Shown one piece after another: positions 7,987 through 48,341 of a stretch of 48,870 bases of DNA. Each line of letters begins with the position of its first letter. Positions within the stretch are counted from its first letter, which is position 1. A program made the translations under genes and the position numbers. Below the pieces are notes generated by a model. That model was not told the origin of the DNA and ran no database searches. It saw only the letters and a program-made list of their open reading frames with translations. The stretch spans positions 1 to 48,870 of the IMG/VR virus record IMGVR_UViG_3300046755_000023, one strand, 5' to 3'. Origin of the DNA: a virus.

Positions 7987-8925
7987 TTAGTCAGTCTTAA
8001 CGACACCCTGAACGATGGCTTCTGGGCGGATGACCTTACGGCCAAACACGTGGAGACCACGAACGATGTCGCTAAAGGTTTCAGTCGAACGTACAACCTC
8101 AGTCTTCGCGATGTGCGAAGCGGTTGCAGTTGAGGACATGTGTCCAGCAAGAACAACGAAGTCGTTCGTGGTATCTTGCGAGTTGATGGTCACAACGTCA
8201 GTTCCCGAGTTGTTCAGGGCAGTGGACTTGTAGCAGTTGAAACCGGCAATGTTGCCAGCCATTACAAGACCGTTGCGGAGAGGCGTAGTTGCGTCTCCAG
8301 TTACCTGAACTTCTGCGAACTTGGCACCGGCCTTGAACGCATTCTCGTAGAAGATCGGAGGTGCTACAAACCAGCGGTTCTCTTCCGGAACAGTCTGGTC
8401 GTCGAGGATACGAGCCATCGTCATCAGCAGGTTGACAGCAGCGTCTTCGTTACCACTACCGGTGATATCGATAGGCGCACCAGCCGTACCAACGGAGGTG
8501 CCAGTATTACCGGCGTTGTCTGCCATGTTCTGCAGAATGTTGGCGTCGTACTTACGCTTCAGGGAGTATGCACCCGAAGAAGTGGCAAGAGCCTCGAAGT
8601 TGACGTGAGACTGACGCTCTTCGATGTCGTCAATCTTGAATGCAAAGGCGTTTGCCTGATCGACAACCATAGTTGTCTGATCGTCAGCAAGGTCTTGCGG
8701 GTTTACGACTGAGCCACGAGCATACGAAGAAACCGTAATTGTCGGTTCTTTGATGATGCGGACAGTGTCGCCAAAGTTCTCAATTTCGCCAGCGTAGTCG
8801 GTATTCGTAATATCTTCTGCAACCGAAGCGCGACGGAAGAATTTGAGAACTTTTTGGCTAAAGATTTCCGGCGTAAAGTTACCGGAAGGCAGGTTGTTAT
8901 GACCTGACGCGCTATTGAAAGCCAT
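7987..8925 (-). CDS. Major capsid (coat) protein
   Basis: This 312-aa protein is a P22-/HK97-type coat of the podovirus branch: N-terminal FTPEIFSQKVLKFFRRASVAEDITNTDY, then GDTVRIIKEPTITV, a DQANAFAFKIDD strand, and C-terminal SDIVRGLHVFGRKVIRPEA. It is preceded by the scaffold gene and followed by decoration, and it is strongly biased toward preferred codons, consistent with high expression. Confidence 0.9.
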   Translation of the reverse strand: MAFNSASGHNNLPSGNFTPEIFSQKVLKFFRRASVAEDITNTDYAGEIENFGDTVRIIKEPTITVSSYARGSVVNPQDLADDQTTMVVDQANAFAFKIDDIEERQSHVNFEALATSSGAYSLKRKYDANILQNMADNAGNTGTSVGTAGAPIDITGSGNEDAAVNLLMTMARILDDQTVPEENRWFVAPPIFYENAFKAGAKFAEVQVTGDATTPLRNGLVMAGNIAGFNCYKSTALNNSGTDVVTINSQDTTNDFVVLAGHMSSTATASHIAKTEVVRSTETFSDIVRGLHVFGRKVIRPEAIVQGVVKTD

Positions 8926-8955: not shown

Positions 8956-9849
8956 TTAAGAGTTGTAGTCGATTCGGCCTTCTGCCCGTGCGGCATCGAG
9001 TTCGGCTTCTGCCTTTTCGAATTCCCACGGTTTCATCTTGCCGATTTCTGAAGCCTTCCAAATCTTGTCGTTTCCGCTTGTCGTCTTGACTTCACGGGCA
9101 ACAGTGCGTGTTACGGCGTCTGCTGCTGAAGCTTTGTTAGATTTGGTACGCTTCTTAGTTTGGCCCGTATCTGCTTTGTACAGATCGAGTACTCGTGCCG
9201 CCCAACGTGCATCCGTGTTATTTTTGTAGATGCCGTCAGAGATTGACTCCGGCTGTTCTCCGAGCCATTCAAGGAACTTATCGTCACCCTTGATGTCGTC
9301 AAAGTCCGGATGCAATCGTAGCAGTTCCTCGTAGGCTTTCTGCTTTTCGAGTTGCTTCTCCCGTTCTTTGATCGTACCGAGTTCGTTACGAAGCTCAGAT
9401 AGCTGGGATTCAGCTTGGAGAGAAGAAACGGTCTGTACGACTTCGAACACTTCCGGGTACTGGTTTTTGAATGCTTGCAGTTCTTCAGGCGTCTTGGGCA
9501 TCGCTACACCTTCAGGCATCTGTGCTTGAGGAGTTTGCATTGCCGTTTTCAAGTCGGCGATTTCCTGCTTGAACTCATTAACCTTTGTGTCGTAGTGTTT
9601 CTTTAGGTCGTCGTATCGTTTCTTGTAGTCGTGGTCCGGTTCTTGTTTTTCTTGTACGAAACTCGTTGCCTCTTGGGGAGTAGCCTCGTCGGGGTCCGCG
9701 TTTTGGGCTTCTACAGTCTCGTCGGATTCATCGTCTTCGTCTTTGTAGACTTCGTCACGATAGTTACCACGATACAGCGTGTCGCTGTTGATTGTGCCGA
9801 AAGAATCATTCGGCTTGTTGGCACGATGGCCCTTTACTCGCTTTGCCAT
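8956..9849 (-). CDS. Capsid scaffolding protein
   Basis: This 297-aa, highly charged, helical protein has an acidic N-terminal third, coiled-coil segments (about 70-110, 145-175) and a basic C-terminal region (TKKRTKSNKASAADAV...) of the kind that contacts coat protein. It sits directly upstream of the coat gene, the standard place for a scaffold. Confidence 0.85.
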   Translation of the reverse strand: MAKRVKGHRANKPNDSFGTINSDTLYRGNYRDEVYKDEDDESDETVEAQNADPDEATPQEATSFVQEKQEPDHDYKKRYDDLKKHYDTKVNEFKQEIADLKTAMQTPQAQMPEGVAMPKTPEELQAFKNQYPEVFEVVQTVSSLQAESQLSELRNELGTIKEREKQLEKQKAYEELLRLHPDFDDIKGDDKFLEWLGEQPESISDGIYKNNTDARWAARVLDLYKADTGQTKKRTKSNKASAADAVTRTVAREVKTTSGNDKIWKASEIGKMKPWEFEKAEAELDAARAEGRIDYNS

Positions 9850-9948: not shown

Positions 9949-12267
9949 CTACTTTTCAGGTGCGGCGTCGAGGGCGTAATAGTCGTGCCCTCCAAAACTG
10001 CTGTAATATCTCATTTTAGGGTTTTTTTCGAAATCCTTTGCGAGTGGCGCATCAGGTTTCGTGTAGAACATCACATCGAACGGAAGAGGACGTTGACCTT
10101 CTGTTTCAGGGTTGGTAACATTCTCTGCTGCCATGAATAGTTTAGTGACTGCACTAGGTACCCGACCCTGTACTACTTCTCGTAAGCGTGGAGCAATCTT
10201 GCTCGGCTCTAAGCCGTCGTATTGAAACATACGACTTCCGCTGCCTCGTGCTGACCTCTGCTTCATAACGGACGGCAGATCGTTTACAGCTTTGAAACTC
10301 GGACGATCTGTGTTCGCACGATTGATGGCAGTTTGCATAACGCCCATCATCGAATCAACAGAGTCTTTGGCAGCAGTCGTCTCAACGAGACCTAAGACAA
10401 AAAGACGTTCACGATCATCGAGTTTGTCTATGAGCTTTTCTACATCACCTCGCTGCTTGCGACTTTTTAGAAAGGTATTGAACTTTTGTCGCGTACTAGC
10501 ATCGAGGGCAATCGACTCGTCCATAGGAATGTCTTCGCCTACGTCACCCCCGTTTGCGAACTTTTTTCCGTCGAGGAAGCCACCTCCTGCCGCTTCTTGC
10601 CGACGGGAGACTTCTTTCTTGCCACGATTGTTGATTTTTTCGAGACGGTCGTAGCCGATGATCTTTGCTACTTCGGGAGGTACGATGACTTCGCCACGAG
10701 AGACGGCGACATCGATTTCATCCTCTGTTGGTATTTTAGCAACGCCGATGGTTTTGTCAACCTTTTTCTGCATCTTACCGTACGCATCCGAAAGCATCTT
10801 CTTGATGTCGTCCGATCCGGCGAACTCGACAGCCGCCGCATTGATGACAAACGTACCCTCTGGGACGGACATCGGTTGATCATCCGCTACGGTCTGGCCG
10901 TCAGTAAAGTTCTCGGGTGGACCTCCGACGAACCCGGCAGGTTGTGGCTGTTGAGATACGCCGCCCGCTTGCATACCGATGCGACCGCCATCAGCGAAAC
11001 CGCCATAAGGACCAAAAGATTCACCCGCGCCACCGCCGCCAGTTCCGATGCCGTCACCATAACCGCTACTGCCACCTTCGTTTTCATCTTGGTTGCCGCC
11101 GCCCGTGTTGATTCCCGGACCACCGTCCTCTTCAGCGGGGTCTGGCGGCTGTGTTGTGGGTGTTATGGGTGGAGGAGCGGCTGGGGCTTCTTCTTCCGAT
11201 CCGTAATTTTTAGACACGTAGTTTTTAATAAACTCTTGGGAACGAGTGAGAGCCTTGTTGTAGTCGGCGTCACTCATACGGGCCGTAGTCGTGAAGAACG
11301 ATTTGCTTCCGCTCATCTCCGCGTCGAGAGCTTGCTTCATAGCGAGAGCATCCCTAGACACGTCTACACCGGCAAGACTTTTTCCCTGCATAGCGTCGAG
11401 GAACATCTGTTCCCGTGCGCGTTCGGCTTGAAACGCCCCGACCATCTGCGGACCACCCGCCCCGTGTACGGTTCCGAATGCGTCGATTGCAACATCTCCG
11501 GCAGTAGATAGTGCGCCTTTGCCGGTACGTGTGTACTCTGATCCGATGATATTTTGAAATCCAGTAACTTTAGTTTCTTTCATCGTACCCGGAATAAACT
11601 TATTACGAATTTCGTCGAGACGATAGAGTTGATCGTTCGACATACCCACAATCGTGCCATCGAAGCGCGTACTACCGGGCGCACGGCTCACAGTCTGACC
11701 GTTGAGGGTGAACATCGAACCGGCATTTCTGCCCGCTTCTGAGATTGCGGTTGCGTTTTTAATCTGTTGTTTTTTGTTTAATTGTGCCGCGCCGAAAGCC
11801 ATCGCACCTACAGGAAGACCGGTTAGGGAAACGACACCCGCCGGAAGCAACCCTTGATCTTTGATCGCTTTTGCACCTCGTTCGAGATAACTCTTGAATC
11901 CGCCCGTGTCTGCCGTGTAGCTTTCGTTCTTTCCGAAGTTGGCAATGTATTCATTCGGATCGACATCGGATACATCATATAGGCTCCCGTCTTTTAACGG
12001 CATTCCTGCAAAGACGTTCGGTGCGCCTTCCCCGCGCTCTCCTACAGGCGTCAAAATATCCGGACGAACCGGATCAGGGTCGGGATCAGGGTCAGGATCG
12101 GGGTCAGGGGCACCTGTCACGCCGATACCTCCAAAATTATAATAGTCGATAAGCTGCTGTTGATATTGCTCAGGAGTCAAGGTTCCGGCAACACCACCCT
12201 GCTGCATACCCACCGGCTCGTCAGCCCTTTCGTGCATCTCTTTTAAAATCTCTGTGATTTTATCCAT
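9949..12267 (-). CDS. Large virion protein with possible C-terminal lytic domain
   Basis: This 772-aa protein has a short helix, a Pro-Asp repeat (residues 54-66), Gly-rich linkers (370-440, GGAGESFGPYGGFADGGRIG) and a conserved block (DQPMSVPEGTFVINAAAVEF) common in marine phage virion proteins. The C-terminal 180 residues (FVLGLVETTAAKDSVDSMMGVMQTAINRA...; PFDVMFYTKPDAP...; FGGHDYYAL) resemble the SleB/hydrolase_2 cell-wall hydrolase pattern. A peptidoglycan-opening role during DNA entry is inferred. The preceding 98-bp gap (9850-9948) holds no clear gene. Confidence 0.65.
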   Translation of the reverse strand: MDKITEILKEMHERADEPVGMQQGGVAGTLTPEQYQQQLIDYYNFGGIGVTGAPDPDPDPDPDPDPVRPDILTPVGERGEGAPNVFAGMPLKDGSLYDVSDVDPNEYIANFGKNESYTADTGGFKSYLERGAKAIKDQGLLPAGVVSLTGLPVGAMAFGAAQLNKKQQIKNATAISEAGRNAGSMFTLNGQTVSRAPGSTRFDGTIVGMSNDQLYRLDEIRNKFIPGTMKETKVTGFQNIIGSEYTRTGKGALSTAGDVAIDAFGTVHGAGGPQMVGAFQAERAREQMFLDAMQGKSLAGVDVSRDALAMKQALDAEMSGSKSFFTTTARMSDADYNKALTRSQEFIKNYVSKNYGSEEEAPAAPPPITPTTQPPDPAEEDGGPGINTGGGNQDENEGGSSGYGDGIGTGGGGAGESFGPYGGFADGGRIGMQAGGVSQQPQPAGFVGGPPENFTDGQTVADDQPMSVPEGTFVINAAAVEFAGSDDIKKMLSDAYGKMQKKVDKTIGVAKIPTEDEIDVAVSRGEVIVPPEVAKIIGYDRLEKINNRGKKEVSRRQEAAGGGFLDGKKFANGGDVGEDIPMDESIALDASTRQKFNTFLKSRKQRGDVEKLIDKLDDRERLFVLGLVETTAAKDSVDSMMGVMQTAINRANTDRPSFKAVNDLPSVMKQRSARGSGSRMFQYDGLEPSKIAPRLREVVQGRVPSAVTKLFMAAENVTNPETEGQRPLPFDVMFYTKPDAPLAKDFEKNPKMRYYSSFGGHDYYALDAAPEK

Positions 12268-12484
12268 CGTTTCGTACCACCGCCTCGTGACTACTCTTCA
12301 ATTTGAGGAGCATTTCCAGTAAAGCCAGCTTCCCCTGCGTTTGGCGCAACTCCGACTCCGATTGTGCCGTTACCACGGCCTGAATCGTCACCTCCCGGAG
12401 GTCCGCTAGGTACTCCTCCAGTAGGGGCCATTCCTTGCTGTGGAGGAGCGCCGCCAGCTTCTGCGCTTGCTGCTTGTTGAGCAT
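12260..12484 (-). CDS. Overlapping small helical protein in portal 3' end
   Basis: This 74-aa protein (MLNKQQAQKLAALLHSKEWP...YLADLREVTIQAVVTAQSES) overlaps the portal gene by 194 nt in another frame, continues through the 23-nt gap after the portal stop, and ends 8 nt into the next gene. It reads as a real amphipathic-helix protein, similar to small proteins encoded just after portal genes in other phages. The portal reading in the overlap is low-complexity Gly/Pro/Gln, as expected if constraint lies in the other frame. Function unknown. Confidence 0.6.
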   Translation of the reverse strand: MLNKQQAQKLAALLHSKEWPLLEEYLADLREVTIQAVVTAQSESELRQTQGKLALLEMLLKLKSSHEAVVRNDG

Positions 12485-14411
12485 CTTGCATCATCCCTTG
12501 TAACATCTGTGCGTATACCTGTGCCTCGTTGACATCGTTTACGAGACTGTCCGGATCGATATCTTGTGCGATTGCCAACTCACGCATCAAGTTCGGAATC
12601 TTGACGAACGGCGCTAGCATCGGATTCGCCACCGTTTGCAAGAGCGAAGTTAGACGCTGAGTGCGTACCTCCTTTTGCATAACGGCTGCAACACCGCGCG
12701 GCTTGATCTCCAAGTCACCTTTCACGTCTTCCGCGTCTTCGTTGAACTGCATGTTCCACTGGAAGTACGCCTCGCCGAGAGGCTTTAGGAGATGATCATC
12801 GATGTTCTTGATGACCGTTTTCATCGACAGGCCCGCACTGCCCATGAGCATCGACAAGCCCGCTGCCGTACGTCCGGTGCCGGTTACACCCGTCTGGCCG
12901 TGCATAATCGACGGGATGCCCGTCTCCTCGTCAGCGAGTTGCCGCGAGATTTGATACATCTGGATGTTTTCCGGTGCCGTGTTCGGAAATTTGAGGCCAT
13001 TGATGGCCGTGCCCGTGACGCCCGACTGACGGCGGAATATCTTACCGGGGAAGATGTCCATGTTCTGTCCGGGCACTAACGACGCCTCGTCTACATCGAA
13101 TACGAGGTTGCCAGCAAGGGCGAGGTTGTCGATAGCCATACGCACGTGGCCGTTCATCAGCATCTGTGCGTCTTCCATGTTCTCAGCAACACCGACGCCC
13201 CACACTTGGTACGGGTTGATTTCGAATGGAAACGCCTGATACGGGATACGTGCCGGAGTGAACGGATTGACAACGCAGCGAAGAACCTGATTTCCACAGA
13301 CCCAGACATTCACCTGAATCTGATCGAACTCGGACATGTTCCGAGCCTCTTGCATGCCCACCTCATCAGCGAACTTGGCATCCAAAACACCCCAGTATTC
13401 TAAGACTTCGTACCGGTTTTCGGCTACGTACGGCTCCGTTTCGTCTTCACGAATCGTATCCTCGTAGTATTTGTCCTCGTAATTCGGTCCCTTTGCAAGA
13501 CACTCCCGTATAGCTTCCGCATCGAAATGTGGACGCATGATGAGACTACGAAGCTGCGACCGGTTCATACGATGACGTTCGATAACGTACTCGCAGTCCT
13601 CGATTGTCGTTGCGGACGGGTCCGGGTGAAAGTCCCAGACGGACACGGCTTCGATGCGTGGTACTGTCTTCTCGTAGGGATTGTACGCCCGTTCACCGTC
13701 CTCGCCACGCTCCCAGTTATGAACGCGCTTGTGAAAGTTAAACGGACCCTTTACGATGCCCGTACCGAGCAGGGCAGATTCGAAGATCGCCTTGCGAAAC
13801 ACGTTGACGGCATTTGTGTCGAGGAGTTGATCGTGGATACACTTTTCCATGAGTCGAGCTTGTTCCTTTGCAGGTTCAAACTGCGGCTCACCTACTTTGG
13901 CCTTGCCCGGAACGAGCATATCGCCAAATTCTTTGCCGTACGATCCCAAGACGTGCGGATCAGATGCGGACATAGCTCCGGGTGCGAGTTCGCGACCATC
14001 GCCCGGAAAACCGTACGGATCGCTCTGCCCGCGATTTAGTTCGTCCGCCGGAGTACGCATATGTGCAAACTCCGCGATACCTTCTGGCATCGGCGTAGAT
14101 TCGACTACGAGCGGAAACTTCTTGTTAGCGAAAAGAATGTCAACAATTTGCCCATACGCCGCAAGGACTTTAGTCTTCGTGATTTTGATGAAGACCTTCG
14201 ACCGTTCGGAGTCGCGGTATTGTGTCGTCGAATCATAGATGCCACGAAAATTCTTGTACGCTTGGAGCCATCGTTGCTCGTAGACGTACCGTCCGTTTTC
14301 TGCATCGTCAAATTTCGCACGAATATATCCGGCGAGACCGGGCATCCGCTCCGTCGGTTCGACGAGGGGGATGGTCTGATCGTCTTCCGGCTCTAGGAAA
14401 TTGTCAGCCAT
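12291..14411 (-). CDS. Portal protein
   Basis: This 706-aa podovirus portal forms the 12-fold ring at the DNA entry vertex. Seen: N-terminal helical region with WLQAYKNFRGIYD, the conserved RSKVFIKITKTKVLAAYGQIVDIL stretch, PRIEAVSVWDFHPDPSATTIEDCEYVIE, and GVGVAENMEDAQMLMNGHVRMAIDN before a long helical barrel region. The last 60 residues are Gly/Pro rich. It lies downstream of TerL, separated by the 755-aa recombinase-like gene and a small gene. Confidence 0.93.
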   Translation of the reverse strand: MADNFLEPEDDQTIPLVEPTERMPGLAGYIRAKFDDAENGRYVYEQRWLQAYKNFRGIYDSTTQYRDSERSKVFIKITKTKVLAAYGQIVDILFANKKFPLVVESTPMPEGIAEFAHMRTPADELNRGQSDPYGFPGDGRELAPGAMSASDPHVLGSYGKEFGDMLVPGKAKVGEPQFEPAKEQARLMEKCIHDQLLDTNAVNVFRKAIFESALLGTGIVKGPFNFHKRVHNWERGEDGERAYNPYEKTVPRIEAVSVWDFHPDPSATTIEDCEYVIERHRMNRSQLRSLIMRPHFDAEAIRECLAKGPNYEDKYYEDTIREDETEPYVAENRYEVLEYWGVLDAKFADEVGMQEARNMSEFDQIQVNVWVCGNQVLRCVVNPFTPARIPYQAFPFEINPYQVWGVGVAENMEDAQMLMNGHVRMAIDNLALAGNLVFDVDEASLVPGQNMDIFPGKIFRRQSGVTGTAINGLKFPNTAPENIQMYQISRQLADEETGIPSIMHGQTGVTGTGRTAAGLSMLMGSAGLSMKTVIKNIDDHLLKPLGEAYFQWNMQFNEDAEDVKGDLEIKPRGVAAVMQKEVRTQRLTSLLQTVANPMLAPFVKIPNLMRELAIAQDIDPDSLVNDVNEAQVYAQMLQGMMQDAQQAASAEAGGAPPQQGMAPTGGVPSGPPGGDDSGRGNGTIGVGVAPNAGEAGFTGNAPQIEE

Positions 14412-14423
14412 TCTTTCGCTTTC

Positions 14424-14642
14424 TTAGTAATCGCGTTCTTCAGCCATACGCATGACAGCCGGATCGACAGCGCCTTTGCTCATTTGCTTCGGCATGTCTT
14501 CCGTCAGAACGCCTTGTGCGGTCTTGGTATCGAACTCAAGTCCCTCACGATACAACTGGTCTGCACCCATCTGATCGTCTACCGAAGTGTTCGGAGAATT
14601 CATGATGTAGTCAGCACCGTAGTTATAGTTGTTGTTCGGCAT
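14424..14642 (-). CDS. Small hypothetical protein before portal
   Basis: This 72-aa polar protein (MPNNNYNYGADYIMNSPNTS...) has a strong ribosome site (AAGGGGAG) and ends 12 nt before the portal gene. Similar short Asn/Met-rich ORFs precede portal genes in related marine phages. No function can be assigned. Confidence 0.65.
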   Translation of the reverse strand: MPNNNYNYGADYIMNSPNTSVDDQMGADQLYREGLEFDTKTAQGVLTEDMPKQMSKGAVDPAVMRMAEERDY

Positions 14643-14661: not shown

Positions 14662-16929
14662 TTATGGTGACATTGTTAGAAAGCTATCGTCGATTGGTGC
14701 GGGAGCAGCTTTCCGGGTCTCCCGTGGCGCGGCCTCTTGAAGTTGACCAGTGGTCTTCAAGCCTTCGCGAACTATTTCACTCTCTGCTGCGGCCCGCTCA
14801 ACAGGACGCATCGAGAACGGATCAGGCTGTACTTCTGCTACGTCTGATGGCGGCACAGGCAAGAACTCGGATGCTCCGGCAATTACACCGGCTGTCTTTG
14901 CGAGAGGGTCGGGTACACTCATAGCCTCCGCTCGTTGCCTAACAGCAGTCCCTGTTGTAACAGCCGCCGCAGTCGTTAAGCCTAAGCCGAGCGGACCGAG
15001 TACAGTCCGCCCTAAGCGTATGCCAAACCTAGCTAGCTTGTTCGACAGTTTATCTGACGGCTCGGTAGTCAGGTTCTTTTCTGCTCCGGCGTCGATGTCT
15101 TCGCCTGTTTCGGCAGCGATTTTAGCAAGTTCGTCTTGCTCTACCTGCTTTGCAAAGTGCTTCTCACGTACCTTTTGACGAATAGTCTCTTCTTCGACGG
15201 CTTGATTTTCTTTGCGCTTTTGTAGATTACGCTTTTCCTTGTCGATGTTAGCCATCTCCAAGTCGAGAGCGTTGCTACGGGCTGTTTCATTTAGCTCTTG
15301 TAGCTCACCCGGAAGCGGATCGCGTCCCTTTGCGGGCTGACTAGCTGATGCAACATCTATAGACTCAGGCGTTGAAAATACGACACTACTTTCGCCGTAA
15401 AAATCAGGAACGTCCACCCGACGATTCAGGAAGAGTTGATTGACCGTACTCGTTCCGGCATTACGGGCGTCATTTCGGATGAGTGTGTTCGTCATTCCGC
15501 CAATACGATCATCAGGAACCTGACCGGTGTACGACTCCGTCAAGATATCTCCTGAGCCGGACATTTCAGCACCGGCATGACCCATCCACGCTTTGACAGC
15601 ATCTTTAGGAAACTTATATTCGACGAGAAGCTGTCGAGCGAGAATTTTACGAATTACAGAGCGAGAGCCTTGCTTTCCCTTAGGGAGAATAGCACTAAAT
15701 TCTGCTTCGAGCTTCGGACGAATTGTAGCATTCCACAAAGCATCGAGCTTAGTGTCCGTAGTCTGAAATAGATTTACCTGAGATGGGTCTGCGCCTTCTG
15801 GCAAGGCAGCACGTGCCCTATCTACTTTTGCCTTCAAAAAATGAGCAAATTCTCCATCGTACATCGCTTCTGGACGAGTCTTTTTTCCGACGGTCTTTCC
15901 AGCTACCTCTGCAATTAAGTTACCATCGGCATCTTTACCGAAGTTGATGTCAGTAATTTTTAAGCCGGTATCTTTGTCAATATTAGATGCGAGACGTTGA
16001 CCAGTATACTTTTCGTAGATAAGATAGTCTCGTGTTTCGGGGTCAATATCTACTGTAACTGTTTTCCCCGTCTTTGTTACTTTTTCGTACGTGTCTTGAT
16101 TGAGAGCTTCGTTGTATACACGGTCTAAGTCTTCAGAAAAGAGCGTTCCTCGCATAGGGTCTGCGCCACGCGACTGTACACCAACCAGTTCGTACGTGCG
16201 TTGTGCGTACCCCTTATCACCACCCAAGAGAGTGAATGGCTCGTTGCGTCCTGCATCTTCAACACGATCCTTAAAACGCCGCTCGAACCATATCCACTCT
16301 TGCCAGCGGTTTACTCCGTCTGCTCTTTCGAGAGGGTCTAGTGCGGCATTAAACTCGCGAGTTTTGTATACATCAAAGTATGGCTGATCTACATCGATAC
16401 CTTCATCAGCTAGTTGAGCGATGAGATTTCGCGTTTTCTTTATGTTGTCTTTTCCGGCTTTTGTTTTATCGGACGTACTGTCCGCTACGAGCGAAAGAGC
16501 TTCACGAACCGTGATGCTTCCATCCTTCATGCGGGTGTTAAAGTCCACCGTTCCCTTTCCGGCATCATTTGCTGGTAAGTCTATCAAATTACCGGCATCC
16601 TGTGTATCGAGTACGCTTCTAAACCTTTCTTCGAAGTCTGCAAAATCTTTTTTATCAATCGTACCCGGAAACTTTTCTTCGATGACTTGAGAAAGAGTAA
16701 AAATTGTGTTTTCGTCTCCTGCGATAGGACTCATGTCCTTGAGGAGTTCTTGCATATGAGCAAAGGTAAATTTACGCGGGATATTTCGTCCGCCAAAAAT
16801 TTCGATGAGACGCTCATTTTCTGGGCCTACTGTCTTATAGCCCTGCATCTTCTTTAGTTCTTTACCGATCTTATCCGCAGCGATGCTGATTTGATCTCGA
16901 CGCTCTGGAAAATCTGTAATTTCTGCCAT
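14662..16929 (-). CDS. Large protein with tyrosine-recombinase-like domain
   Basis: This 755-aa protein lies between TerL and portal. Residues 160-230 look like a SAM-like core-binding region. Residues 300-470 follow the tyrosine recombinase catalytic order: Arg312 (KYTGQRL), then ITDINF and a Lys loop (GKTVGKK, 344-350), Arg427 (SVIRKIL), His451 (AWMGHAG) and Tyr467 (LTESYTG). Arg427 to His451 spacing (24) is near XerD's 23. The first motif II His is Ser424, and the His-Tyr gap (16) is longer than usual. Residues 545-600 form a charged coiled coil and 636-662 are Gly/Ala/Leu rich. Activity is uncertain; it could be a virion protein with a retired domain. Confidence 0.6.
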   Translation of the reverse strand: MAEITDFPERRDQISIAADKIGKELKKMQGYKTVGPENERLIEIFGGRNIPRKFTFAHMQELLKDMSPIAGDENTIFTLSQVIEEKFPGTIDKKDFADFEERFRSVLDTQDAGNLIDLPANDAGKGTVDFNTRMKDGSITVREALSLVADSTSDKTKAGKDNIKKTRNLIAQLADEGIDVDQPYFDVYKTREFNAALDPLERADGVNRWQEWIWFERRFKDRVEDAGRNEPFTLLGGDKGYAQRTYELVGVQSRGADPMRGTLFSEDLDRVYNEALNQDTYEKVTKTGKTVTVDIDPETRDYLIYEKYTGQRLASNIDKDTGLKITDINFGKDADGNLIAEVAGKTVGKKTRPEAMYDGEFAHFLKAKVDRARAALPEGADPSQVNLFQTTDTKLDALWNATIRPKLEAEFSAILPKGKQGSRSVIRKILARQLLVEYKFPKDAVKAWMGHAGAEMSGSGDILTESYTGQVPDDRIGGMTNTLIRNDARNAGTSTVNQLFLNRRVDVPDFYGESSVVFSTPESIDVASASQPAKGRDPLPGELQELNETARSNALDLEMANIDKEKRNLQKRKENQAVEEETIRQKVREKHFAKQVEQDELAKIAAETGEDIDAGAEKNLTTEPSDKLSNKLARFGIRLGRTVLGPLGLGLTTAAAVTTGTAVRQRAEAMSVPDPLAKTAGVIAGASEFLPVPPSDVAEVQPDPFSMRPVERAAAESEIVREGLKTTGQLQEAAPRETRKAAPAPIDDSFLTMSP

Positions 16930-16932
16930 AGG

Positions 16933-18651
16933 TTAGTATCCGAATGTCGAGTCTTGTACTTGGTACACTTGATTCTTGATTGCGCCGAGTTGCTGGTGTA
17001 TAGAAGTGTATCCACTCATGCGTGTCATCAACATGTAGCGGAGGGCGTCGTATGCGTGATCTTCAGCCTTTGTGTCTACGTCTTCGCTGTTAGACTTAGA
17101 AAGCGGTATACCAGCGAGTTGCTTGATCGTGTTTTGGCACGAAGAAAAGATGCGTAGGCGAGGCTCTTCGGTGTACGGATCGTTAGCGAGGCGACGATGT
17201 ATTTCCATCTTTCCCTGTATGCGATTACGATCGGATGGCGTCCAGCGTACGCCCGACCTCATCATAGTTTCCGCTATCGAAGGTCCGAAACCCGTCTTGT
17301 TCCAGCACGAGGAGTCTAAGACGGTATAGTGAGGTTGCGGGTCTAGCTCCTCTGCTTCTAGTATTTTATCAGCGAGTTGCTCTGCTGTCAAGTGTTTAGC
17401 ATATAGTTCGCGATAAATCCAGATATTATTATCCCAGTCAATAGCCCCCCACAGAACGCACGACGGACTCGCGTAGCCGTAGTCTGCCGCCCGTATACGT
17501 GGCCAATTGGTAGGTAGGTCGAAATATTCGACAACGTGCCGACTCCTTGAAAACTCGGGGAAGGCCGCTCCCTCCGCCACGTCCCAATCACCTTCGAGGA
17601 GTCGCCTTCGTTCGACATCCGGGAGCGACCTGAGCATAGCCTCGTATTGGCCGTCTGCCATCAGGTAGGGATTGTCGGTCAGCCTTGCCGGTACAAACTT
17701 ACGAAGGAACAAGGGCTGACCCGCTTTTTCGTGGCTCGGGGGCCACACAAACGGATTACCAGTTTCGATGTCGAACGCAGTGAACGCCTTGTTCGGTTCG
17801 ATCCCATCGATGTACGTTTTCTTAACCCACCAGCCGCCGATACCACCGGGGTTTGCTGTGCAGCGCATATATAGGTGCTGCTGGAGTTCGGGGTCTGTGG
17901 AGCGGAGACGAGAGCGTAAGTAATCCCAGACGTACGGTGTGGGGTACTGGGTTATTTCGTCGATACCGATCCAGTTGAATGCCTGTCCTTGAAAGCGGGT
18001 TACGTCTTTATCTTTGTCGAGGTAGGTGAACCAGATCGTTGCCCCGGATGGAAAGACCCACGTAGACTTCGACTCACGGAACTTCGCACCGGGAAACGCC
18101 TTCGTGTAGAGTTGGCGTGACTTGTCGATGAGTTCGGTTAGCTCATCGAGAGTACGCCTAAGAAGAAGCCCACGATGATTAGGGTTGTGACAGAAGCGCA
18201 GAGGATCGGCCAAGAGAGCGAAAGATTTACCACCCCCGGCTGCTCCCCCGTAGAGAACATCTCGTTCACCCGCTGAAAGAAAGTCCGTTTGCGGACCATC
18301 GTTCGGTTGAAACACCACCTCGCTTTCACCGACCAAGTCCGACACTGCACTCGGTAGATCAGATAAATCCCCAAGATCGATTGTGGCAGTCTGATCGCCG
18401 ACAAGAGCTTTTTCAACTTTTCCTACCTTTTCTTCGAGTTTGCGGGCGTAGCGACGTTTATCTTCTGCGGCTTTGCTCGACTTTGCAGCACGGTTCTTTG
18501 CGGAGCGTAAACGGCCCTGCGCTGCACGTCTCGCACGTTCGCGCGTAGAGAGTTGATATGTGGCTTTCGGTGCATTCGGGTCTTTTTTAGGACGACCGCG
18601 ACGTTTCGGCGCTTTCGCTTGCTTTTCTTCCTCGACAGGCTTTTCCGCCAT
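16933..18651 (-). CDS. terL: Terminase large subunit
   Basis: This 572-aa DNA-packaging motor has an ATPase and a nuclease domain. Walker A is GGAAGGGKS (135-143) and Walker B is WIGIDE (227-232, Asp231/Glu232). The RNase H-like nuclease acidic residues are Asp390 (AADYGYA), Asp446 (TVLDSS) and Asp531 (AEDHAYDALRY). Unusually, residues 1-80 are a very basic extension with an AT-hook-like KRRGRPKK (16-23), which may help bind DNA. It overlaps the preceding small gene by 65 nt. Confidence 0.95.
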   Translation of the reverse strand: MAEKPVEEEKQAKAPKRRGRPKKDPNAPKATYQLSTRERARRAAQGRLRSAKNRAAKSSKAAEDKRRYARKLEEKVGKVEKALVGDQTATIDLGDLSDLPSAVSDLVGESEVVFQPNDGPQTDFLSAGERDVLYGGAAGGGKSFALLADPLRFCHNPNHRGLLLRRTLDELTELIDKSRQLYTKAFPGAKFRESKSTWVFPSGATIWFTYLDKDKDVTRFQGQAFNWIGIDEITQYPTPYVWDYLRSRLRSTDPELQQHLYMRCTANPGGIGGWWVKKTYIDGIEPNKAFTAFDIETGNPFVWPPSHEKAGQPLFLRKFVPARLTDNPYLMADGQYEAMLRSLPDVERRRLLEGDWDVAEGAAFPEFSRSRHVVEYFDLPTNWPRIRAADYGYASPSCVLWGAIDWDNNIWIYRELYAKHLTAEQLADKILEAEELDPQPHYTVLDSSCWNKTGFGPSIAETMMRSGVRWTPSDRNRIQGKMEIHRRLANDPYTEEPRLRIFSSCQNTIKQLAGIPLSKSNSEDVDTKAEDHAYDALRYMLMTRMSGYTSIHQQLGAIKNQVYQVQDSTFGY

Positions 18652-18817
18652 GTGCCATATCCTTCACTTCGAGTCCGGCCTTACGAAGCTCTCGCTTCAT
18701 GAGGATTCCCGCTTGTTCATCAGTTAAGTCGTTTTCACGAGCGATACGCATAACCTTTTGTTGAATTTGCTCTCGCGTAGGTTTTTCACTTTTGAGTACG
18801 TTACTCGGAAATTCCAT
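18587..18817 (-). CDS. Small helical protein between TerS and TerL
   Basis: This 76-aa protein (REQIQQKVMRIARENDLTDE) has a basic, Ser-rich C-terminus that overlaps the TerL start by 65 nt, and its ATG overlaps the TerS end by 17 nt. A GAGGT ribosome site precedes the ATG. Function unknown; an accessory packaging role is only suggested by position. Confidence 0.6.
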   Translation of the reverse strand: MEFPSNVLKSEKPTREQIQQKVMRIARENDLTDEQAGILMKRELRKAGLEVKDMAHGGKACRGRKASESAETSRSS

Positions 18818-19214
18818 CGATTGTTACCTCATTCTTTGGCGGCAACAGGACGACGCCGTGTACTGCCGTTACATTGTGGTTTACCTGCTCGGGGGCTTTC
18901 ACTCCGACACGAGTGAGCAGCGATTCGGCTGCCTTGAGGCGCAGGTCGTCTCCGCGTTCTGGGGCGGGGTTGTCTATTGTTGTGACGAGGCGGTTAGCAG
19001 CCTTGATCGCATTGACGGAAAGGATGTCTTTCGTACGTTCTACGATCTCATCGGCCAACGTCTTCTTGAGCCACTGGCTCGAACCCTTCGAGTAGCCCGC
19101 ATCTACTGCAGCGGCAGTGACATTACCGCCGTTTTCGAACAAAATGTCCAAGAATTGCTGCTGTTGTACGGTTAGGGTGCGCTCTTTTGGCTTTTGCTGG
19201 GGTAAGAGGTTCAC
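18801..19214 (-). CDS. terS: Terminase small subunit
   Basis: This 137-aa protein recognises phage DNA for packaging. It has an N-terminal HTH (LTVQQQQFLDILFENGGNVTAAAVDAGYSKGSSQWLKK), an oligomerisation helix (EIVERTKDILSVNAIKAANRL) and LRLKAAESLLTRVGV, a pattern common to TerS. I use the GTG at 19214, which overlaps the previous stop as GTGA; a GTG 7 codons upstream is also open. Confidence 0.85.
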   Translation of the reverse strand: MNLLPQQKPKERTLTVQQQQFLDILFENGGNVTAAAVDAGYSKGSSQWLKKTLADEIVERTKDILSVNAIKAANRLVTTIDNPAPERGDDLRLKAAESLLTRVGVKAPEQVNHNVTAVHGVVLLPPKNEVTIDGISE

Positions 19215-19405
19215 GTGAAGTCTCTTTCGATGCACTTGAAGCTATACGAAGCCGGAACGGGGAACATTTGAGCTACTCCTTCCGCCATTTCGTACGAACG
19301 AGTCTTACATTGATCGTACGTTTCATACGGACCAAGTGTATCATCAAAACGTACACACTTGTCCGGCGTTGCAAGGGCGCAGACGAGGAGCAATGCTTCG
19401 AACAT
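19211..19405 (-). CDS. Small exported two-Cys protein (paralogue A)
   Basis: This 64-aa protein starts at the ATG at 19405, chosen because AAAGGAG lies 9 nt upstream. It has a signal-like N-terminus (MFEALLLVCALATPDKC) and a short domain with two Cys (YETYDQCKTRS...YSFKCIERD). It is the first gene downstream of the strong promoter at 19517-19545. It resembles the proteins at 5177 and 25267. Function unknown. Confidence 0.65.
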   Translation of the reverse strand: MFEALLLVCALATPDKCVRFDDTLGPYETYDQCKTRSYEMAEGVAQMFPVPASYSFKCIERDFT

Positions 19406-19630: not shown

Positions 19631-19694
19631 GTTAGGGGTACGTTTTGTCCCCTGTTAGGGGTACGTTTTGTCCGCCCCGACAATGTACGTTTTT
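19631..19694. repeat. Direct repeats, possible operator or origin sites
   Basis: Two perfect 20-bp copies of GTTAGGGGTACGTTTTGTCC (19631-19650, 19654-19673) with a 23-bp period, then a partial third copy (TGTACGTTTTT, 19684-19694). They lie in a non-coding stretch (19584-19797) just beyond the divergent promoters. A GC hairpin (CACCCCC/GGGGGTG) follows at about 19757-19784. A regulator-binding or replication role is possible. Confidence 0.7.
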
Positions 19695-19923: not shown

Positions 19924-20037
19924 GCCGCTTAATCTCCGACTGGCCTGTCGCGCTGAGAAAGCGCAGCAATTCCCGAACAACAACCGCGCCGATTTCCCGA
20001 ACGAAAACAGCCCGCCGGGATTAAACGACGGGCCGCA

Positions 20038-20069
20038 CAAAAAAGAACCCCCAGCACTAGGGCCGGGGG
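20038..20069 (-). terminator. Rho-independent terminator
   Basis: On the minus RNA, CCCCCGGC (20069-20062) pairs with GCUGGGGG (20055-20048) across a 6-nt loop, followed by UUCUUUUUU. One pair is G-U, possible only on this strand (A/C mismatch on the other), which fixes the orientation. It closes the gene at 20122-20343. Confidence 0.85.
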
Positions 20070-20121
20070 CAAGGTAAGGGAGGATGCCGGGATATTAGCC
20101 CCTCACCGGCAGGGTAACTGG

Positions 20122-20977: not shown

Positions 20978-22000
20978 CTATGCCGCCAACACTTCGAGGT
21001 ACCGCCAAGAGGGACCATCGATGATAGCCCGCACCTGTTCGTTTCGTGTGTACCTTTTGCGCTCGGCTCGGCCCCGGTCTCGGGCGTCCGGCAGATGCGT
21101 AGCCCAATGCGTCAAGGCATTGTAACCGGCCCAGAGCGTCAGGCCGAGTTCGCGCCGCTCTTCCTCGAACCGTTCCAAAAGCCAGTTGAGGCGGGATTCA
21201 TTCACCGACAAGCGTTCATCGGCATCAGCCGCCTTCGTGTTTTTCCGGCAGATAGTCTCTTTCAAGATGTCGGCAAACTGGCGATTAGTCAGCGGCGTAC
21301 TCCGCCAGCGGTCCATAACGTCGCGCTGGTCCTGCCACATCGAAAGCCCCATCGTCGCCTTCGCGATCATAGCTTCGGGCGATACCGAACCCCGGTGAAT
21401 CTTCCGCTGGTGGTAAGCCTTTTCCCCACCGAATACCAAAGTATTGCGGCACAGGTCACGGTAGGCACCAGAGAAGATTTGCAAGGCCCACGACATATCG
21501 ACCGAGTTGAACATGTCCATCCGGCAGCGCACCTTGTCCTGCTGGCCGTCTTTCGTGATCGACAGGTCTTCGAGGTCGTGGAAGTAGATGGTGCGATGAA
21601 CCCGCGCCCCCTCTTCATAGATGCGGTCTACCACCTCGACGTTACTCAGCGGCAAGTCCGACGCGGCCAACAAGTCAGCCTGCGCCTTGAAGAGGCCATC
21701 GTGCGGAACGAGTGCGTACGATTTGCCGACGGGCCGGATGTTCAAAAGTCCGCCGGTCGCCGTGTTTTGTAGGGCGTGGAAATCATCCATCCGCTGCGGC
21801 TCGACAATGTCCCGGATAACTTCCCCGGTCGGTGTCAGGTCGGGCGTCGAGGTTAGGGCTTCGATCGGCACCCGGCGAATCTTACCGAATTTTTCGTATA
21901 ACGAAACGTCTTCGATGTTCCGATGAGTAACCCAGATGTCACCGCCCCGGGCTTTCGCCTTTGCTGCGGCTGTTTCTTCGTAAGGTATAAGATCAAGCAT
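20978..22000 (-). CDS. DUF932 / TIGR03299-family protein
   Basis: This 340-aa protein matches the phage/plasmid DUF932 family: NTATGGLLNIRPVGKSYALVPHDGLFKAQADLL, FGGAYRDL-like FSGAYRDLCRNTLVFGG, and the C-terminal RLNWLLERFEEE..LTLWAGYNALTHWATH. The family is frequent on plasmids, integrative elements and some phages; its biochemical role is unknown. A strong AAAGGAACC ribosome site precedes the ATG. It is the largest gene of the compositionally distinct island. Confidence 0.85.
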   Translation of the reverse strand: MLDLIPYEETAAAKAKARGGDIWVTHRNIEDVSLYEKFGKIRRVPIEALTSTPDLTPTGEVIRDIVEPQRMDDFHALQNTATGGLLNIRPVGKSYALVPHDGLFKAQADLLAASDLPLSNVEVVDRIYEEGARVHRTIYFHDLEDLSITKDGQQDKVRCRMDMFNSVDMSWALQIFSGAYRDLCRNTLVFGGEKAYHQRKIHRGSVSPEAMIAKATMGLSMWQDQRDVMDRWRSTPLTNRQFADILKETICRKNTKAADADERLSVNESRLNWLLERFEEERRELGLTLWAGYNALTHWATHLPDARDRGRAERKRYTRNEQVRAIIDGPSWRYLEVLAA

Positions 22001-22198: not shown

Positions 22199-22252
22199 TT
22201 TTAGCGTCGCCGCGTTTGTCATGCGTACGTTTTAGCGTCGCCGTGTTTGTCA
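22199..22252. repeat. Two-copy 23-bp direct repeat
   Basis: TTTTAGCGTCGCCG(C/T)GTTTGTCA occurs at 22199-22221 and 22230-22252 (31-bp period, one mismatch). It overlaps the stop codon of the 205-aa gene and lies upstream of the DUF932 promoter candidate. A protein-binding site or recombination scar is possible. Confidence 0.7.
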
Positions 22253-23330: not shown

Positions 23331-23494
23331 AGTTCCCCCCTGTGTAGCATATTTGTCAGACGTTTTGCTTCGTTGCGTTGCGCGTTTTTCACCGGTTTGT
23401 CATGCCAGTCTGCCTCATCTATTAGCGTCCGCAAGTTTGTCAGCTTGTCGCGTACGTTTTCGAGGTTCGGATCGTTCTCCGGATCAACCCACAT
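23312..23494 (-). CDS. Small hypothetical protein
   Basis: This 60-aa protein (MWVDPENDPNLENVRDKLTN...HRGELWLPKF) starts at an ATG preceded by GGGGGAG 7 nt upstream. It is predicted helical. It overlaps both neighbours by 11 and 19 nt in the chain of overlapping small genes. No function recognised. Confidence 0.55.
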   Translation of the reverse strand: MWVDPENDPNLENVRDKLTNLRTLIDEADWHDKPVKNAQRNEAKRLTNMLHRGELWLPKF

Positions 23495-46433: not shown

Positions 46434-47531
46434 TTACATCTCCGCATCAAAAGCAATGAACGAGGTTTTATTGTTGTTTGACATTAGCTGAGAACCTTGT
46501 CCGCTTGTTAGACCGCTGGCAACATTTACCTCTAAATTAACTAACTCTGGGCCAGAACCGTCGCCCCCGATTGCGGGTGTGCTACTGCAAGCAGTGTTAC
46601 CACCTGAATGTGTGATGGCGTAATTAGATGCTGTTCCAGTTGTGCTAACGGATGGTGTTGCCCTCATAGTAACTGGCATATGATAGCTTCCCGCAGTCCC
46701 TGTGGTGCTTGTATTGCGTTGGGAATTATACCGATAATAATTACCATTAGCGTTAGCTGAATCTAGTCGATGATAATACCTCTGACACCTAGCCAACTCA
46801 TCGCCAAACGACCGATGCTCAAACGGCGTGTCCTGTTCGCCAAGTTCAAGCTGGACGCCGGTGATGTGGAAAGTAGCCGATGCTGTTCCAATTACGTTTG
46901 TTGCGCCTGTTGCTGAAATATTACCGGAACCAACCCAAGCCCCAGCAGTGCCAGAATAAGTTGAACCAACTCCAAGACCCCAAAAAACTTGAATGGACGC
47001 ACTGTTATCTGTAGGCCACGTTCCTGTAGTGTCACCTGCAACAGTTATTGTTTTCTTTTCCCAAGTATTTGCTGATGAAATTGAATAGGTAAAAGGATAA
47101 GATCGGTTAAACGCATTGTTTGCAAACGCACCACCAAAAGTGCCAGTTAAAGAACTTCTCACATAAAAAGATAGTGTTACTGTTTTTGCGTTTGCCGTAC
47201 CCCAATTTAGGTGGGCAACATTCAAGCCCTCTAGCTTTTGCCCGACATAACATAGTTGTGTTGCAGCTAAACTTGTGTCAGCGGTTCCCGTAGTTAAAAG
47301 CGCAGAATATTGAAAGTCTGTTGGTGATGTTGATGACTGTTGAATAGTCATAGTTCCATCAGTATCTTCAACAGCAAAAAATCTATCTAAATAATATACT
47401 TGCGATGATGTTAGGGTAGAACTAGATGTACCCCGCTGCGCCACCTGCATCGCACCGTTGATAATTAGGTTCCTGTTCGACAACGCCGTCTGCGAACCAA
47501 TCAGTGCGGCGAGTTCTGCTGCCTTACTCAT
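46434..47531 (-). CDS. Tail fibre / receptor-binding candidate
   Basis: This 365-aa protein starts with NLIINGAMQVAQRGTS, a motif typical of phage fibre or carbohydrate-binding tips, followed by a jelly-roll-like beta region (LDRFFAVEDTDGTMTI; VTLSFYVRSSLTG; FHITGVQLELGEQDTPFEHR). The C-terminal third is variable-looking. It is the last of a run of tail tip genes and is the best receptor-binding candidate. Confidence 0.75.
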   Translation of the reverse strand: MSKAAELAALIGSQTALSNRNLIINGAMQVAQRGTSSSTLTSSQVYYLDRFFAVEDTDGTMTIQQSSTSPTDFQYSALLTTGTADTSLAATQLCYVGQKLEGLNVAHLNWGTANAKTVTLSFYVRSSLTGTFGGAFANNAFNRSYPFTYSISSANTWEKKTITVAGDTTGTWPTDNSASIQVFWGLGVGSTYSGTAGAWVGSGNISATGATNVIGTASATFHITGVQLELGEQDTPFEHRSFGDELARCQRYYHRLDSANANGNYYRYNSQRNTSTTGTAGSYHMPVTMRATPSVSTTGTASNYAITHSGGNTACSSTPAIGGDGSGPELVNLEVNVASGLTSGQGSQLMSNNNKTSFIAFDAEM

Positions 47532-47893
47532 GCGAGGTCTCCCAATACGCCCATACCGCCGCCGCCGTCTACACGGGTTCCAGCATCAGCATCAAACAAA
47601 TCAAGTGCTATGCTCCCTGTAGCTAGAGTGCTGTAACACAAGACTCTGTTGTCATTAGATTTTGAAGAGCAAACACCAGTATAATTGACATTATTCATAC
47701 TGTTGGTAAAAGAAAAGGTGTAATCACCAGTTCCGTTATCTGTTCCAGATGAAATATTGTGCGAGTCTAATGCCGTAGCAGTTTGGTCTGTTCTACACCA
47801 CGCCTTTGCCGTACCCTCTGCGACAGTAGACATGCCCACGCTGTTGTTCCCGCTGGCATCTTTGAGGGTGTTTACTCTAAGTTCACTAGCCAT
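47528..47893 (-). CDS. Tandem fibre cassette protein 1
   Basis: This 121-aa, Asn/Ser/Thr-rich protein starts MASELRVNTLKDASG and ends GVLGDLA. It is paralogous in layout to the next two genes: a leader of the 'L.V.T' type, a mid NNGTGDYTFSFTN-like strand, and the same C-terminal GDLA. It may be a small fibre or fibre tip alternative. Confidence 0.7.
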   Translation of the reverse strand: MASELRVNTLKDASGNNSVGMSTVAEGTAKAWCRTDQTATALDSHNISSGTDNGTGDYTFSFTNSMNNVNYTGVCSSKSNDNRVLCYSTLATGSIALDLFDADAGTRVDGGGGMGVLGDLA

Positions 47894-48341
47894 TATGCGA
47901 GGTCTCCCAAGACTGCTGCATCATTATAGTCACGGTCTAGGGCTATAAAATTATTGATAGACGTAACATACCCCTGATGCACTCTGTATAAAGATGAGGT
48001 TCTAGGCGTCAGGTTGTCATACACCTGCATAGCGACCAATCCTGTGTCTCCGCTTTCTTTATCTCCCGATTGTGCGAAGACAGAATAGGTGGCGTTATTC
48101 ATATTATTTGTCAGCGTAAAAGAAGTATCACCTGTTCCGTTATCTGTAAGGCTAGAATTGTTAAAACTACCTAGCACAGATGTTGAACTGTCCGTATCAA
48201 AATTACACCGATGTTTTACCAGCCCCTGCTGCAAATTCGTTGTGGTCGAGTTTCCCTCGCCTGTCACCGCAATAGACCCAGCCGTGGTTACGCCTGTAAT
48301 TGTATCGACTTTGAGTATGCTTGCCATTATGCGAGGTCTCC
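47530..48341 (-). repeat. Shared junction sequence of fibre cassettes (three copies)
   Basis: The minus sequence GGAGACCTCGCAT recurs at 47542-47530, 47907-47895 and 48341-48329. The last two continue identically as AATGGC (total 19 nt). It encodes the GDLA end of one gene and supplies both ribosome site (GGAG) and start for the next, so cassettes can be exchanged without breaking frame. Confidence 0.75.
47893..48327 (-). CDS. Tandem fibre cassette protein 2
   Basis: This 144-aa protein (MASILKVDTITGVTTAGSIA... NGTGDTSFTLTNNMNNATYS... AVLGDLA) shares the start, core strand and GDLA end with its neighbours but differs between them. Stop and next ATG overlap by 1 nt in the shared junction sequence. 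Confidence 0.7.
   Translation of the reverse strand: MASILKVDTITGVTTAGSIAVTGEGNSTTTNLQQGLVKHRCNFDTDSSTSVLGSFNNSSLTDNGTGDTSFTLTNNMNNATYSVFAQSGDKESGDTGLVAMQVYDNLTPRTSSLYRVHQGYVTSINNFIALDRDYNDAAVLGDLA

Follow-up and report, generated by a model that had tools for sequence, protein, structure and literature searches.

A hypervariable tyrosine recombinase gene in a fixed slot between terminase and portal genes of uncultured HMO-2011-type marine phages

We wondered why a phage would encode a tyrosine-recombinase-like protein among its packaging and head genes, and whether that protein is an enzyme. The DNA analysed here, which we call the window, is a whole viral record of 48.9 kb from an uncultured clade of HMO-2011-type marine podoviruses; the nearest relatives of its terminase large subunit (TerL) are those of Roseobacter CRP phages, Pelagibacter HTVC phages and HMO-2011 (48-59% identity), and its DNA polymerase contains a DnaJ-type zinc motif, a mark of HMO-2011-type phages (PMC9038755). 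Kinship with phages of Roseobacter, SAR116 and SAR11 makes marine Alphaproteobacteria the probable hosts of the clade. Its packaging and head genes are transcribed in the order TerS, TerL, 755-aa recombinase, 72-aa ORF (p72), portal, 772-aa protein (p772), 297-aa protein and major head protein, with 3 nt between TerL and the recombinase gene and 19 nt between that gene and the next ORF (Table 1). A preliminary description, based on the single sequence, had proposed a tyrosine recombinase domain in this packaging unit, either carried in the virion, linked to packaging or reused structurally. Its observation is confirmed by the fold, the conservation and the position between TerL and portal of the domain, and its interpretation is partly supported; the main feature of the gene, that it is a hypervariable exchangeable cassette, is invisible to single-sequence reading.

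Table 1 Recombinase gene, its parts and its neighbours in window coordinates
Feature	Position	Strand	Remark
Tyrosine recombinase gene, 755 aa	14662..16929	minus	ATG start
N-terminal helical domain, residues 1-126	16552..16929	minus	optional module
SAM-like core-binding domain, residues about 127-250	16180..16551	minus	AF2
Catalytic domain, residues about 255-510	15400..16167	minus	AF2, fold matches
Arg312 (Arg I)	15994..15996	minus	invariant 47/47
Lys350 (strand lysine)	15880..15882	minus	invariant 16/16 of core class K0
Arg427 (Arg II)	15649..15651	minus	invariant 47/47
His451, in WMGHAG	15577..15579	minus	
Tyr467	15529..15531	minus	predicted nucleophile
Long continuous helix / coiled coil, residues 542-608	15106..15306	minus	AF2
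Exchangeable C-terminal tail	14662..15020	minus	
Gly/Ala-rich hydrophobic segment, residues 639-669	14923..15015	minus	
C-terminal peptide SFLTMSP	14665..14685	minus	family motif [SGD]F[ILVM]
TerS	18801-19235		
Terminase large subunit TerL	16933..18651	minus	fixed upstream neighbour
72-aa conserved ORF (p72)	14424..14642	minus	recombinase-portal interval
SU10-type portal protein	12291..14411	minus	fixed downstream neighbour
772-aa protein (p772)	9949-12267		
297-aa protein	8956-9849		
Major head protein	7987-8925		

Taken alone, the window protein had no significant recombinase match in Pfam, PHROG or the PDB, so the motif reading depended on relatives. From scans of viral contigs with the recombinase and TerL we obtained 47 non-redundant full-length proteins encoded at the same gene position. 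Mean column identity in their alignment is 16%, and the only invariant columns are Met1, Arg312, Arg427 and Tyr467, which places the motif set far beyond chance. The sequence and the alignment both put Arg312, Arg427, His451 and Tyr467 where they had been named; the lysine, given earlier as a range (345-350), is present and best assigned to Lys350, which is invariant in the window's own core class. Conservation in homologues, on which the preliminary description had staked its reading, holds for Arg312, Arg427 and Tyr467 but not for His451, which is replaced in two classes: column 451 holds His throughout K0, K2, K4 and K5, but K3 has Arg there and K1 varies. Tyr467 is aligned in 47/47 sequences in alignment A1 and in 44/47 in a MAFFT local alignment, where the remaining three have gaps.

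The box-II histidine (H-x-x-R) varies among accepted tyrosine recombinases, being common rather than universal, and for this reason we do not count its loss as excluding the protein from the superfamily. That loss had been pointed out for the window (Ser424) and is real; the same position is S, Y, T, K or R in relatives, making the absence a family-wide trait and not a local defect. PF00589 was matched by 23 of the 47 family members at E<=1 (best 1.5e-5) and PHROG integrases by 17 and 11 of them, while a profile of the whole family retrieved archaeal XerA, Tn1549 Int and XerD chains from the PDB (best E 2.3e-9). Profiles of classes K1 and K3 each matched PDB sequences as well; a profile of class K0 only found none there. 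Single members fall below profile cut-offs, which explains why standard annotation misses this recombinase.

The predicted structure agrees with this assignment. The AF2 model (m2c3fdb4923c1) contains the core-binding and catalytic fold (Foldseek to Cre, probability 1.00), with block pLDDT of 84-98 over catalytic residues 261-450 and only moderate model quality in the segment bearing the tyrosine. Inter-domain orientation weakened a Foldseek search with the whole protein, which was cured by a rerun on residues 142-512: the first 19 matches were Cre variants and the protelomerase TelA (probability 0.95-1.00). VIA-align with the same residues matched Tn1549 Int (Z 13.1), XerH (12.2), lambda Int (11.0) and Cre (10.9), so the fold test suggested for the recombinase region returned recombinases; a search of BFVD with the model gave nothing usable. 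The SAM-like region and coiled coil anticipated on either side of the core appear in the model as a helical domain at about residues 127-230 and a helix at 542-608. The optional N-terminal domain, shared at 84% by the window and the relative L003, is missing from many homologues, which begin at the core. Between the window and the relative L001, dN/dS of the core is 0.076 against 0.091 for TerL, indicating that the core evolves under purifying selection. From sequence and model, the gene product is thus assigned as a tyrosine recombinase with the R...K...R...H...Y set, whose predicted catalytic competence is well supported.

The position of the gene is fixed as well. Searching two core classes across viral contigs and counting wherever the contig reaches, we found TerL upstream of the recombinase in 96/96 contigs and portal downstream in 93/93, as the preliminary description had suggested looking for in relatives. 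A search with one C-terminal tail yielded 43 recombinase ORFs, further to or overlapping with the earlier set, all of which lie in the TerL-portal slot as far as their contigs show (31/31 where both neighbours are readable). Judged from these contigs, the window's uncultured clade keeps the gene strictly between TerL and portal. The window protein and two other cores had no match among the isolated phages of the collection; in isolated HMO-2011-type phages portal follows TerL directly or with only small ORFs between, and HMO-2011, CRP-2, CRP-603, CRP-235, HTVC033P and HTVC115P have no recombinase there. In more distant phages the TerL-portal gap is a general cargo slot: the same place (L095:5222-6829, L264:3935-6484 and L097:6532-7191) is occupied by a GDSL hydrolase, an FAD oxidoreductase and an HNH-like ORF.

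What occupies this fixed slot is extremely variable. The recombinases fall into six core classes, defined at BLAST E 1e-10, and some pairs of classes are barely recognisable as kin even by profile comparison. Mapping the classes onto a TerL tree (45 phages) takes 25 changes, where shuffled labels take 25.5; this near-random spread points to strong diversifying or frequency-dependent selection on an enzyme that recombines DNA. In 32 pairs of phages with TerL at least 93% identical, the recombinases are less than 50% identical in 91%, compared with 0% for p72, portal and TerS; p772 is as variable as the recombinase, falling below 50% in 92% of such pairs. This 772-aa protein carries FADGGRI/FANGGDV motifs, and its homologue in L036 weakly matches the cell wall hydrolase family PF07486.

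The edges of the variable segment coincide with the ORF. L067 and L071 are 96.3% identical in DNA until the start codon and 97.6% identical over the 3.4 kb that begin with the last codons, and their recombinases are of classes K5 and K1. Throughout 14 near-identical pairs, upstream homology stops at -4 to +13 relative to the start codon and usually returns no more than about 30 nt from the stop codon. Unrelated cores occur in phages whose flanks on either side are 96-98% identical. Exchange also takes place within the gene. The window shares its N domain and core with L001 (core 92% identical), where the tail is replaced, only its N domain with L003, and no part of the ORF with L015; its tail recurs in L006, L009 and L010 with different cores, being all that L006 and L010 have in common with it. 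Core distances show no correlation with tail distances (rho 0.01) but do correlate with those of the N-terminal region (rho 0.54). Cassette exchange at the TerL-portal locus is therefore well supported by genome comparison, in which deeply divergent alleles replace one another cleanly from start to stop codon; recombination has also acted separately on N domain, core and tail. Such ORF-exact boundaries need no special mechanism, because divergent alleles in freely recombining flanks would give the same picture, and we saw no repeats or target-site signatures at the cassette ends.

The exchangeable tails nevertheless have a common plan, in which the core is followed by the long helix, then by a hydrophobic segment about 60-180 residues before the end, and finally by a C-terminal motif. 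Peak hydropathy exceeds 1.2 in 32/47 tails, compared with 1/47 outside the tail. A C-terminal [SGDNT][FY][ILVM] or F..GG.[ILV] motif is present in 85 of 95 distinct tails where shuffling predicts 6.9, a ratio that is descriptive only, since the motif class was defined after the tails were inspected. Ends of the SFLYGGVVR type are one example. One 40-aa end module sits on five of the six core classes, and even unrelated cores have tails built alike, with a Gly/Ala-rich hydrophobic stretch and [S/G]F[L/I/V] as the C-terminal motif. TerL, portal and p72 do not have the motif at their ends, nor is it enriched in most other genes of the window, and so it is not a general virion signal. Tail and p772 distances correlate weakly (rho 0.17, or 0.12 once portal is removed), and for this reason we make no claim, from co-variation, that p72 or p772 is the specific partner of the tail. 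We rejected as spurious a resemblance of the window tail to paramyxovirus F protein, which reflects low-complexity Gly/Ala-rich sequence.

What would an exchangeable recombinase with such a tail do? Its place in the late operon, the conserved tail and the lack of a canonical early integrase are together best fitted by an enzyme loaded into the virion. The operon position suggests that the recombinase would be produced late, together with packaging and head proteins; the fixed head-operon position adjoining portal and the conserved tail motif would be in keeping with carriage in the virion. The tail may dock the enzyme onto a component of the assembling head (portal, p72 or scaffold); the enzyme would then travel in the virion, enter the cell along with the DNA and at once cut and rejoin DNA at a putative core-specific site. 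The likeliest job would be the integrase or circularization role that a canonical early integrase fills in HMO-2011 and CRP-2, and alleles would turn over through diversifying selection on target specificity, whether for a host att site or in competition among co-infecting phages. Cre packaged in engineered T4 heads is active after delivery (PMC10229621), which makes virion delivery of such an enzyme mechanically possible. We favour this reading, of a catalytically competent, late-made, tail-docked and virion-carried recombinase with an integrase-like role, while putting its probability somewhat short of even. More tentatively still, the locus could represent a natural system of virion-delivered site-specific recombinases that are interchangeable, tethered by a common C-terminal docking tail and injected with the DNA: a population pool of specificities swapped at one locus, much as antigen or toxin cassettes are.

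Alternatively, an ordinary temperate-phage integrase may have moved into the late operon and act only in the cell, its alleles corresponding to different attB sites and no enzyme being carried in the virion. Integrase exchange is common between temperate phages, and we found no canonical integrase in any of the 11 records of 40-54 kb that carry the cassette. HMO-2011 and CRP-2 both possess an early one (see also PMC9038755 and PMC6918029), and another phage of the group, CRP-3, uses tRNA-Met as its integration site (PMC6918029). With ORF-exact swaps and such narrow intergenic gaps, however, no adjacent attP or excisionase moves along with the gene, and the common tail motif is unexpected for an ordinary integrase. 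Signs of lysogeny were also missing: a TerL-pattern scan of GTDB species representatives (one genome per species) revealed no lysogen of the clade, its sole match, L116, having no recombinase gene, and no repressor or excisionase was recognised among the proteins scanned. We consider this explanation unlikely. The TerL of L116 (L116:6747-9338), on a contig binned as Blastopirellula, is interrupted by an intein-like insertion, and an ORF at 15006-15710 may encode a homing endonuclease.

We found no attP, dif-like or lox-like site; an Rfam tRNA-fragment test for attP gave no site in its positive control, CRP-3, either and so carries no weight. A handful of dyad candidates, mostly GC-rich and terminator-like, included none recognisably common to all genomes. 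This bears on a second alternative, that the enzyme helps packaging or replication late in the cell, for example by resolving multimeric or concatemeric genomes while TerL packages them or beforehand. Strict placement beside TerL and portal would suit such a helper, as would its closest structural matches, Cre and TelA by Foldseek and Tn1549 Int and XerH by VIA-align. Yet the isolates listed above package their DNA with no such gene in the slot, and a helper working on the phage's own genome should not require six unrelated cores amid near-identical neighbouring genes, nor did the genomes have a dyad site in common; we regard a packaging helper as rather improbable. A role in tail-fibre inversion was rejected, as inverted repeats are only short, imperfect and distant, with no long ones flanking the fibre genes.

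To much the same degree we doubt that the gene is a selfish or moron cassette in a cargo slot, mainly promoting its own exchange or kept as a passenger. Gene-exact replacement and the varied cargo of distant relatives are what such an element would produce, but in the window's clade the slot is always filled by a recombinase, its ends bear no element-like signatures, and the partial swaps of N domain, core and tail, with the conserved tail motif, indicate that selection acts on the protein as a whole. Structural reuse, which the preliminary description had also entertained, is very improbable: the phage SPbeta/phi3T repressors SroF and YopR show a tyrosine recombinase fold turned to other use, such as DNA binding, SroF is among our weaker fold matches (Z 7.9) and the box-II His is missing here, but SroF and YopR are not known to have the catalytic residues, whereas Arg312, Arg427 and Tyr467 are invariant across six core classes, and the window's core is under purifying selection.

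Over residues 142-512 the window protein has the two domains of the Xer, Int and Cre enzymes (Tn1549 Int, XerA/XerH/XerD, lambda Int and Cre) in the same fold, together with their R-K-R-H-Y set. It is about twice their usual length, however, with an optional N domain, the long helix and a hydrophobic tail that carries the C-terminal motif, and its gene is multi-allelic and lies in a packaging/head operon. The canonical integrase of HMO-2011 and CRP-1/2/3 comes from the same phage group and enzyme superfamily; it is about 300-360 aa long, is encoded upstream of the replication module and scores well against PF00589, and in the window's clade the TerL-adjacent form stands in its place. The T4 capsid targeting signal is N-terminal, whereas the window's motif is C-terminal and natural, with a putative role. 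Alongside the T4 internal proteins with a capsid targeting sequence, the engineered Cre shows that a phage head can take up an active recombinase (PMC10229621). That multidomain proteins bearing enzymes are packaged in virions is an established proposal (Iyer et al. 2017, PMC5512222). Such polyvalent or ejection proteins (PMC5512222; P22 E-proteins) resemble the recombinase in their large multi-module build, portal-adjacent genes, exchange of enzyme domains and possible membrane-active segment; the survey itself has no mention of a tyrosine recombinase or integrase (PMC5512222).

Our literature search found no tyrosine recombinase reported in virions or from the interval separating terminase and portal; the available portion of the report on the Lacusarx phage gives XerC/D-like genes and does not place them in its virion proteome. 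The superfamily is known, and its large, position-locked, exchangeable head-operon form appears to be unreported in the literature searched. HMO-2011-type phages are reported to be dominant and widely distributed in the ocean, and members of subgroups IV-X, with no identifiable integrase, have been inferred to be lytic (PMC9038755); a recombinase in the packaging operon bears on whether integrase-less members truly are. For studies of specificity, and, if virion carriage is true, of how proteins are loaded into phage heads, the locus offers many divergent recombinase cores, a large natural set with one kind of tail, and the spread of core classes is an evolutionary question that can now be tested.

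Several smaller features were seen elsewhere in the window. Upstream of TerS lie a gene for a DUF932-domain protein (20978-22000, E 6e-21) and a 1.2-kb stretch with no assigned genes, within which positions 20032-20117 (minus) give a sub-threshold match to the alphaproteobacterial sRNA suhB/mmgR (27.5 bits, cut-off 41). Short direct repeats in non-coding DNA at 19631-19673, 22199-22252 and 23420-23442, GTTAGGGGTACGTTTTGTCC (twice) and TTTTAGCGTCGCCGCGTTTGTCA (three times), are perhaps promoters or protein-binding sites. At 47528-48327, two neighbouring small ORFs have common repeats of 67 nt (73%) and 34 nt (82%) about 400 nt apart, which suggests a tandem gene duplication beside the tail-fibre genes.
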